Shown piece by piece: positions 4,142 through 5,403 of a DNA stretch of 64,000 bases. Source of the DNA: Microvirga sp. (lineage in GTDB: Bacteria > Pseudomonadota > Alphaproteobacteria > Rhizobiales > Beijerinckiaceae); contig NZ_JACXAB010000004.1 of NCBI RefSeq assembly GCF_014699075.1, positions 310,001-374,000 on the forward strand, given 5' to 3'. Each line of letters begins with the position of its first letter. Positions within the stretch are counted from its first letter, which is position 1. The notes beneath the pieces were generated by a model. It saw only the letters and a list, made by a program, of their open reading frames with translations, did not search any database and was not told where the DNA came from. A program made the position numbers and the translations under genes.

Positions 4142-4165
4142 GGCTCCTTCGGCCAGACATTTCAG

Positions 4166-4194
4166 AAGGGGCGGCTCTCGGGCCGCCCTTTTTT
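4166..4194 (+). terminator. Intrinsic terminator of the rplM-rpsI operon
   Basis: A 10-bp GC-rich stem (4166-4175 with 4182-4191, one G-U pair) around a 6-nt loop, running into TTTTTT. It lies 25 bp after the rpsI stop. Confidence 0.85.
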
Positions 4195-4216: not shown

Positions 4217-4245
4217 TTGACAGGACAGGGCTTCAACCTCATACA
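4217..4245 (+). promoter_or_regulatory. Predicted promoter of the arg leader / argC
   Basis: A perfect TTGACA (4217-4222), a 17-bp spacer, then CATACA (4240-4245), a weaker -10 matching TATAAT at three positions. Transcription would begin at about 4252, on the AUG of the leader peptide, making it a leaderless message. Confidence 0.6.
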
Positions 4246-4251
4246 GCTTTC

Positions 4252-4314
4252 ATGAGCCAGAGCTTTTCCATCATCCGACGCCGAATGACCGCCGCCGCGG
4301 CGCGCGTGCGATGA
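4252..4314 (+). CDS. Arginine-rich leader peptide (putative argC attenuator peptide)
   Basis: A 20-codon frame, ATG 4252 to TGA 4314. Codons 9-11 are CGA CGC CGA (Arg-Arg-Arg), codons 18 and 20 are also Arg (CGC, CGA), so five of 20 residues are arginine. No Shine-Dalgarno is seen, but the predicted transcription start coincides with the ATG, as reported for the trpL leader of rhizobia, which is translated leaderless. The Arg triplet sits in the 5' arm of a hairpin (4268-4317), and a terminator follows at 4336-4361 before argC. The peptide probably has no role beyond ribosome stalling when charged tRNA-Arg is low. The frame is seen directly; function is inferred. Confidence 0.6.
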   Translation: MSQSFSIIRRRMTAAAARVR

Positions 4315-4317
4315 TGG
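4268..4317 (+). promoter_or_regulatory. Arg leader hairpin and antiterminator segment (candidate attenuator)
   Basis: CCATCATC (4268-4275) pairs perfectly with GATGATGG (4310-4317). Past a 2x2 internal loop, ACGC (4278-4281) pairs with GCGT (4304-4307). Within the 3' half, CGCGGC (4296-4301) can instead pair with GCCGCG (4338-4343), the 5' arm of the terminator, with GCG 4308-4310 to CGC 4333-4335 as an extension. A ribosome stalled on the Arg codons 4276-4284 would open the first hairpin and release 4296-4310 for antitermination. Confidence 0.55.
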
Positions 4318-4335
4318 CTGTCCGAGCCTGACCGC

Positions 4336-4361
4336 AAGCCGCGCCGATGCGCGGCTTTTTT
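4336..4361 (+). terminator. Leader terminator upstream of argC
   Basis: A 9-bp stem AAGCCGCGC (4336-4344) with GCGCGGCTT (4349-4357), tetraloop CGAT, followed by a T tract to 4361. No full-length gene lies between this and the preceding rpsI terminator, so its natural role is premature termination of the argC transcript. The product would be an RNA of about 110 nt. Confidence 0.75.
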
Positions 4362-4434
4362 GTTTTCCAAGAACCATATCGGGACTAACGGCTTTGCCTA
4401 GGGACGGGCGGCCACAGGTGAAAACGGATCGACC

Positions 4435-5403
4435 ATGACGACCATGACTCAAAGCTCAACGGAACTCAGCCAGCGGACCAAGACCGTCTTCATCGACGGG
4501 GAGGCGGGCACCACCGGCCTCGGGATCCGCGATCGTCTCCAGAGCGTGCCCGGCGTCAAGATCCGCAGCATCGATCCCGAGCGGCGCAAGGATCCGGCGG
4601 CCAAGCGTGAGATCCTGGCCGAGGTCGATCTTGTTGTGCTGTGCCTGCACGACGATGCAGCCCGGGAGACCGTGAGCCTCGTGGACGGCCTGAGCGGCCA
4701 GAAGCCTCGGATTCTCGACGCCAGCACGGCCCATCGGGTGAGCCCCGGCTGGGTGTACGGCTTTGCCGAGCTCGATTTCGCTCAGCGGAAAGCGGTTGCC
4801 AATGCCGACCGGGTTGCCAATCCGGGCTGCTATCCCACAGGCGCCATCGCGCTCATCCGGCCTCTGGTGGATGCTGGCCTCGTCCCGACCGATTATCCGA
4901 TCAGCGTGAATGCGGTGAGCGGCTACAGCGGGGGCGGGCGCTCGATGATCGAAGCCTACGGGGCCGGCACGGCTCCGGCCTTCGAACTCTACGGCCTCGG
5001 CTTCGAGCACAAGCACGTGCCCGAACTGCAGAAGTACACCGGCCTGACCCGGCGGCCCATCTTCATCCCCTCCGTCGGTAATTTCCGCCAGGGCATGCTG
5101 GTGAGCGTGCCGCTCCACCTCGACCTGCTGCCGGGCAAGCCGAAGGCAGGCGATATCGAGGCTGCGCTCATGGAGCACTATCAGGGCGGCGGTCTTGTCA
5201 GCGTGGTGCCGACAATCCGGGACGGCAAGAAAGTCGAGCGCCTCGAGCCCGAGGCCCTGAACGACACCGACCGGCTGGAACTCTTCGTCTTCCAGCACGA
5301 GAGCTACAACCACGCGCTCCTGGTCGCGCGCCTCGACAACCTCGGCAAGGGCGCCTCTGGTGCGGCGGTGCAGAACATTCAGCTCATGCTGGGGCTGATT
5401 TGA
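4435..5403 (+). CDS. argC: N-acetyl-gamma-glutamyl-phosphate reductase (type 2)
   Basis: Third step of arginine biosynthesis: NADPH-dependent reduction of N-acetylglutamyl phosphate to the semialdehyde. 322 residues, matching the short type 2 ArgC class. The N-terminal NADP fold starts [14 protein letters not shown] (about residues 18-31). The catalytic Cys132 lies in [10 protein letters not shown], and [13 protein letters not shown] and EHKHVPEL carry substrate-site residues. Start at 4435 or 4444; the ribosome site is weak in either case. Its position after rplM-rpsI is, from memory, conserved in this order. The upstream leader (4217-4361) suggests control by arginine supply. Confidence 0.95.

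Follow-up and report, generated by a model that had tools for sequence, protein, structure and literature searches.

Results

The argC upstream region

The window, meaning the whole 64,000-nucleotide stretch of Microvirga sp. DNA analyzed here, carries argC downstream of rpsI. The argC product is a short type N-acetyl-gamma-glutamyl-phosphate reductase (TIGR01851, 405.7 bits against a cutoff of 229.85), and the nearest among the named-collection matches listed is ArgC of Microvirga soli (93% identity). The features are as follows.

4164..4193, + strand: terminator-like site 3' of rpsI, 13 pairs with a T tail, from a pattern scan
4217..4222, + strand: -35 element TTGACA, from the sequence
4240..4245, + strand: weak -10 element CATACA, from the sequence, with a 17-nt spacer and a predicted start at 4252
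4252..4314, + strand: argC leader peptide frame MSQSFSIIRRRMTAAAARVR, ATG at 4252-4254, 20 codons plus TGA, predicted to be leaderless
4276..4284, + strand: control codons CGA CGC CGA (Arg-Arg-Arg), codons 9-11 of the frame, from the sequence
4299..4311, + strand: region 2 (5' strand of the putative antiterminator), GGCGCG and UGCGA, which overlap the final codons of the frame
4333..4345, + strand: region 3 CGCAAGCCGCGCC, candidate partner of region 2 (antiterminator) or region 4 (terminator)
4336..4361, + strand: intrinsic terminator (region 3:4), 9 bp with a 4-nt loop and a T run
4435..5403, + strand: argC

The site at 4164-4193 would isolate argC transcription from the upstream ribosomal-protein genes. 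Two further arginine codons lie in the leader frame, CGC at codon 18 and CGA at codon 20. The arms of the terminator stem (4336-4344 and 4349-4357) are followed by a T run reaching 4361, which gives a predicted terminated RNA of about 110 nt. On direct inspection of the sequence, the positions of the promoter, the ATG, the arginine codons and the terminator in the initial annotation of this locus are correct. A pattern scan of the window detected the terminator and missed the promoter, because its rule requires T as the sixth base of the -10 element, which is an A here; when leaders are sorted by promoter spacing, a CAT or CATA consensus is observed at the matching -10 distance. The 115-nt leader of the window folds more stably than its dinucleotide shuffles (z of -2.23, with 3 of 200 shuffles equal or better).

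For genome searches we used model R2, which was built from 45 leaders, extends from the promoter through the T tract and includes 11 training leaders from family f20. No second copy was found with R2 in the genome of the window, where the next match scores 27.8 bits and is limited to model positions 119-150. The other arginine genes of this genome are thus without a leader of this build.

Conservation of the leader before argC

ArgC was found in 144 of the 149 genomes of the family to which the window genome belongs. We examined 140 argC upstream regions of up to 800 bases each, gathered in sets of 30, 100 and 10 loci; contig ends shortened two of them (L102 and L110) to 497 and 262 bases. A strict rule called for a frame of 10-35 codons with its ATG 33-38 nt after TTGAC and at least three arginines plus RR or RxR. 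Such a leader was present in 42 of the 140 regions on the sense strand, and the reverse strands yielded 0 of 140; when the first 130 regions were shuffled in dinucleotide blocks, matches averaged 0.66. Leaderless frames of 10-35 amino acids of any composition occur in 43 of the regions, and an arginine-rich one is found in 42 of those 43. By itself the arginine criterion is loose, given that 231 of 461 short ATG frames in the family argC regions pass it; what is rare is its combination with the promoter and with the codon choice described below. The strict rule failed in 98 of the 140 regions, and these are real misses of the rule; at two loci (L136 and L156) shorter arginine frames were observed behind TTGAC. 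Promoter spacing, arginine cluster and terminator are kept among the leaders, and the remainder of the peptide is variable. As the sequences are related, significance values given here overstate their independence.

Among named organisms we scanned 80 loci, 40 of Microvirga (L190-L229) and 40 others. A leader was present in 37 of the Microvirga loci and in two of the others, those of Alsobacter metallidurans and Desertibaculum subflavum; five named loci are identical to counted family loci, so that the named and family sets overlap. The leader was absent from the loci of Microvirga guangxiensis (L203), M. flavescens (L223) and M. pudoricolor (L224), and none was found within 600 bases or fewer at short-ArgC loci of Acidovorax, Curvibacter and Bradyrhizobium. 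In M. guangxiensis neither the leader nor its terminator is found between rpsI and argC, perhaps as the result of a natural deletion. The comparison among relatives proposed with the initial annotation thus bears out recurrence in the family and in Microvirga, but no leader was found at six Bradyrhizobium short-ArgC loci.

Promoter placement and predicted start

The family scan employed TTGAC as a criterion, but model R1, which was built from 20 leaders without the promoter, did not. Matches to R1 were numerous at E values of 1e-6 to 1e-2, and 30 loci were inspected; R1 was later replaced by R2. In all 18 arginine leaders that R1 identified outside its training set, TTGAC lies 35-39 nt upstream of the ATG, a spacing found in 0 of 9 false matches. 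Loci L052-L057 and L059-L061 were rejected as leaders, several of them consisting of the ends of coding genes plus a terminator. From the distance between TTGAC and ATG, transcription is predicted throughout to start on the AUG or a few bases away from it, and that of the window leader is predicted to begin at the AUG at 4252. In the main texts of two published studies of transcription start sites, argC is without mention.

Codon choice in the leader frames

The codon CGA accounts for 2 of 422 arginine codons in the ArgC genes of 21 family genomes versus 54 of 120 in the leaders, and in 14 order-level genomes for 1 of 239 versus 29 of 68. Within the family argC regions CGA makes up 84 of 198 arginine codons of leaderless frames as opposed to 153 of 1007 in other short frames. 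With nested starts merged, the dicodon CGA-CGY is present in 32 of 37 leaderless frames versus 13 of 321 other short frames; for RRR the corresponding figures are 21 of 37 and 23 of 321. CGA was observed within the main arginine cluster of all 51 terminator-bearing leaders (49 by script and two RCR clusters by inspection) and within codons 1-14 of all 39 leaders from named loci, and 47 of the 51 contain an in-frame CGA-CGC or CGA-CGT dicodon. The A of the first CGA is paired in the fold of the window leader. Although 14 of 35 Microvirga-type leaders cannot form this pair, the A is invariant, indicating that codon identity, and not that pairing, seems to be selected.

Terminator, candidate antiterminator and fold

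A recognized terminator, in which a T tract follows a G+C-rich stem, is present in 51 of 58 leaders (the window and 50 others). All 20 leaders in the first alignment form it, and in some of them two pairs are changed on both sides. In leader numbering, pairs 86:105 to 93:98 are kept in all 35 Microvirga-type leaders and pair 85:106 in 28 of 35. The 9-bp terminator with a T tract that had been described for the window is accordingly present there, conserved and accompanied by both-side pair changes, and by these comparisons its assignment is well supported. Seven loci (L022, L071, L088, L089, L113, L127 and L140) have an arginine-rich leaderless frame before argC and no recognized intrinsic terminator; these are perhaps translational or Rho-dependent variants.

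The initial annotation had also placed a hairpin at 4268-4317 around the arginine codons, which is partly supported, but its pairs are unevenly kept in the 35 Microvirga-type leaders. Pair 24:59 is kept in 35 of 35. The outer 1:2 pairs 17:66 to 23:60 are kept in 28, 24, 9, 18, 31, 19 and 29 of 35, the inner pairs 27:56 to 32:50 in 21, 25, 24, 34, 30 and 30, and the inner pairs 38:49 to 41:46 in 26, 19, 33 and 6. Given this uneven retention, conservation of the outer 1:2 helix is only partly supported.

For the antiterminator, the lowest-energy duplex is longer than the proposed pairing of CGCGGC with GCCGCG and by inspection combines GGCGCG (4299-4304) with CGCGCC (4340-4345) and UGCG (4307-4310) with CGCA (4333-4336). 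Its energy in the window is -22.3 kcal/mol versus -16.0 kcal/mol for the terminator hairpin, a comparison between different routines that serves as a guide only. The shuffle mean is -18.7 kcal/mol and 10 of 100 shuffles are as low, so the window value is not exceptional. When region 2 was dinucleotide-shuffled in the set of 51 leaders, one of which was dropped as too short, the 2:3 duplex was below the shuffle-mean energy in 44 of 50 leaders, with a mean z of -1.39. The motif GCGCG of region 2 is invariant in the 35 Microvirga-type leaders.

With the ribosome placed on the second arginine codon (stalled state), mean sequestration of the 5' arm of the terminator over 51 leaders was 0.80, compared to 0.48 with the ribosome on the stop codon and 0.67 for shuffled sequences, part of the drop being expected because the stop state exposes less RNA. 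In 22 of the 51 leaders sequestration remained above 0.5 with the ribosome on the stop codon. Three leaders (L007, L017 and L019) reached 0.32-0.33 when stalled, no better than their own shuffles, and in two others (L037 and L049) sequestration was slightly lower in the stalled state than at the stop.

Covariation had been suggested as a check on both hairpins. The terminator shows both-side changes, but those in region 2:3 are weak. In family f20, region 2:3 exhibits one-sided G-C/G-U changes only, and 2 of 11 sequences are unpaired at one pair. The Microvirga-type leaders contain four cells with both-side changes, a number that 13 of 500 shuffles also attain; pair 48:105 is unpaired in 14 of 35 and pair 56:96 in 15 of 35, and at one 2:3 pair U-A is replaced by C-G in 3 of 35, with 15 unpaired there. 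Covariation did not demonstrate the antiterminator, because regions 2-4 show hardly any variation. Weak covariation is also expected if region 3 must fit two partners, which is not proof. The folding statistics thus argue for the candidate antiterminator, and covariation hardly does.

Leaders in other families and before other arginine genes

In family f20 all 12 genomes gave a match to R2, and the leaders there precede a long-type ArgC (TIGR01850, 429.6 bits against a cutoff of 233.6 at L038). In 297 genomes of the order there were 28 matches at E<=1e-6, comprising by inspection 20 arginine leaders, seven Thr/Lys-type leaders before asd (f36) and one non-leader (G276). Leaders before a short ArgC were observed in genomes G396 (L037) and G233 (L036), and genome G412 carries two leaders, one before a profile-typed ArgD (L041, MNPAAIIRRRMLPRLRPRLR) and the second before an ArgC-like gene named by inspection (L283, MPHAISHLVRRRRSHLLSRR). 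Outside the order, 4 of 385 class genomes besides the window's own score above 86 bits. Downstream of L163, L165 and L166 there are short-ArgC-like frames (by inspection), and downstream of L164 an ArgD frame that is only 226 residues long and covers positions 1-226 of a 395-position profile. A weaker match, the candidate leader L168, also precedes ArgD. The leader L170 (MKLAIASARRRTTFRWGG) precedes a GNAT protein with the N-acetylglutamate synthase family as its best NCBIfam match; its score of 90.1 is far below the cutoff of 280, making the synthase identity only a lead.

In nearly all leaders inspected, the downstream gene belongs to the arginine pathway (short ArgC, long ArgC or ArgD). The leaders before long ArgC and ArgD indicate that the signal points to arginine and not to argC as such, and the element seems able to arise before different pathway genes. 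The expectation that a short frame with clustered arginine codons would recur at argC thus holds both inside and outside the family of the window genome. An exception to the pathway context is L040, an arginine leader (MSPYAINRRRQFENPARARGR) with a terminator before a RidA-family gene (PF01042); at L169 an arginine-rich leaderless frame (MSKVIRPSLRRRRGRPFGRAAA) precedes a gene for a GNAT-like protein.

Leaders rich in other amino acids were also noticed. In family f36, predicted leaderless Thr/Lys-rich leaders (L167, L286, L287 and L290-L292; for example, MFTTTKRTTKTTTAPGARGGVRA) are followed by a G+C-rich hairpin and a T tract before the gene for aspartate-semialdehyde dehydrogenase, which is NCBIfam-typed in L167 only; L289 of this family has the same leader start fused to the frame of the asd gene. 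A leaderless Thr-rich leader (MTTRTTMTATTTTRCGGP, L174) precedes the gene for threonyl-tRNA synthetase, an aromatic-rich leader (MTLNLANYFTFFRYPAPVAAEGVRTV, L179) that for DAHP synthase, and a leader with Tyr-Tyr (MIATAHPIRTYYRPLT, L284) a prephenate dehydrogenase-like gene named by inspection.

ArgR, known RNA families and earlier descriptions

None of the 61 genomes of the order that were searched, that of the window included, gave a match to the C-terminal domain of ArgR (PF02863); the same search was positive in 8 of 14 named control genomes. On this basis an ArgR operator was rejected as an explanation of the element. A survey of proteobacterial regulons reports strong conservation of ArgR across many gammaproteobacterial groups and its absence from other classes (PMC5343134). 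A riboswitch was also rejected, since by inspection the conserved blocks coincide with the arginine codons and the strands of the switch, and nothing resembling a separate aptamer was seen. At gathering scores, Rfam matches in the window are three tRNAs only. A search of 15 related loci at E<=1 gave three sub-gathering matches, all on the minus strand and none credible, and assignment to a known RNA family was thus discarded.

No earlier description of an arginine-biosynthesis attenuator was found in the main texts of the open-access literature searched, in agreement with the initial annotation, which knew of none of this type. The main texts of PMC4117421, PMC10117765, PMC4842269, PMC9320726, PMC5082802, PMC2965389 and PMC4997734 contain none. 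For Pseudomonas aeruginosa carA, a leader peptide and possible pyrimidine-linked attenuation were reported. As far as searched, arginine was missing from the amino acids with synthesis known to be subject to leader-peptide transcription attenuation.

Discussion

The element before argC very probably acts as a ribosome-mediated transcription attenuator, by which argC expression is adjusted to the supply of charged arginine tRNA. We base this on the frame, promoter spacing, terminator, conservation, codon bias and recurrence before arginine genes, all of which can be read from the sequences. The initial annotation arrived at the same interpretation, and our tests support it; its weak points are the outer 1:2 helix and the poor covariation in the antiterminator. 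Transcription would start at the AUG, so that a ribosome begins on a leaderless message. With ample arginine, the ribosome would read CGA-CGC-CGA through to the stop codon and cover region 2, which would allow regions 3 and 4 to pair and terminate transcription, leaving the RNA of about 110 nt. Under arginine shortage, the ribosome would pause on the arginine cluster, and region 2 would remain free to take region 3; with regions 2 and 3 paired, the terminator would be blocked and argC transcribed. In the proposed model, the start site is thus a prediction, as are the ribosome pause, the RNA switch and the arginine response.

The conserved features could also reflect other functions. The terminated leader might act mainly in trans, as a small RNA or through its peptide, with cis control of argC being secondary. 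The predicted product of about 110 nt has a strongly conserved GCCGCGC arm, and trans roles are described for rnTrpL and peTrpL (PMC7298713), but pairing with regions 2 and 4 already accounts for this arm, the peptides differ widely outside the arginine cluster, which argues against a conserved peptide function, and the element stands before arginine genes in nearly all inspected leaders, with two in one genome. We consider a mainly trans-acting role improbable. A mainly translational or Rho-dependent output of arginine-codon sensing, at least in terminator-less members, would account for the 7 of 58 leaders without a recognized terminator and has a precedent in the Salmonella speF leader, which couples arginine codons to Rho and RNase G (PMC6386406). 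With a G+C-rich stem and T tract in the window and 50 other leaders, we rate such an output as a quite improbable main mode.

Arginine-rich frames are common in G+C-rich DNA, and an artefact of composition next to an ordinary intergenic terminator has to be weighed, in particular as the loose arginine rule is passed by so many short frames (231 of 461). The reverse strand (0 of 140), the shuffles, and the codon and dicodon controls (CGA-CGY in 32 of 37 versus 13 of 321 frames) lead us to reject it as highly implausible. The 35-39 nt spacing between promoter and AUG in leaders that were found without the promoter, and the recurrence before two types of argC and before argD, further contradict it. 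Transcription attenuation in response to arginine remains our preferred interpretation.

The near-fixed codon choice constitutes a natural, apparently strongly selected use of a rare codon in a control peptide. In the Salmonella his leader, CGA was reported to be read slower than CGU and CGC, any arginine codon except AGG paired with CGA gave the highest de-attenuation, and the same inosine tRNAs read CGA, CGC and CGU (PMC4046918). These three codons are presumably read by the same inosine tRNAs in Microvirga, too. For Salmonella speF, the frequent arginine codons CGC CGC were reported to be as effective as rare ones for arginine control (PMC6386406), and CGA thus need not matter for sensing. 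CGA, which is nearly absent from ArgC genes, probably makes the ribosome pause more sensitive. It is conceivable, although we would lean against it, that arginine synthesis in ArgR-less alphaproteobacteria is run by leaderless attenuators before argC, argD and perhaps the acetylglutamate synthase gene, with the near-obligatory CGA-CGY serving as a gauge of inosine tRNA-Arg charging or editing and not simply of total arginine. The attenuator proposed here offers a concrete answer to how bacteria without detected ArgR could control arginine synthesis.

Amino-acid attenuators of proteobacteria include his, thr, phe, leu, ilv and trp, and the argC element resembles them in combining a leader peptide that contains control codons with mutually exclusive hairpins. 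Arginine is reportedly missing from a 2004 survey of proteobacterial attenuators. Repression by ArgR concerns the same pathway and signal, but is exerted by a DNA-binding repressor. T-boxes act through direct binding of tRNA and have no leader peptide. The arginine T-box of Firmicutes resembles the attenuator proposed here in its control at the RNA level by tRNA-Arg charging. A 2005 paper on Actinobacteria mentions attenuators for histidine, threonine and phenylalanine in other species, but T-boxes for tyrosine and arginine (PMC1262725). In Salmonella, two consecutive arginine codons in orf34 upstream of speF sense arginine by ribosome pausing (PMC6386406). Unlike the window leader, orf34 is described as serving putrescine synthesis, with a Shine-Dalgarno start, transcription from 516 nt upstream, and action through Rho, a ribosome-binding site and RNase G with no intrinsic terminator (PMC6386406). 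Transcription of the trpL leader of Sinorhizobium meliloti starts directly on the AUG of a short frame, as is predicted here, and the two leaders share consecutive codons for the end product, a terminator before a biosynthetic gene and a small terminated RNA, which is likewise a prediction here (PMC7298713, PMC10117765). They differ in the amino acid, arginine with CGA-CGY here and tryptophan there, and in the gene that follows, argC or argD here and trpE there. Compared to known leader-peptide attenuators, the candidate attenuator before argC would thus be new in responding to arginine, in its predicted leaderless start and in its nearly fixed pair of rare codons.
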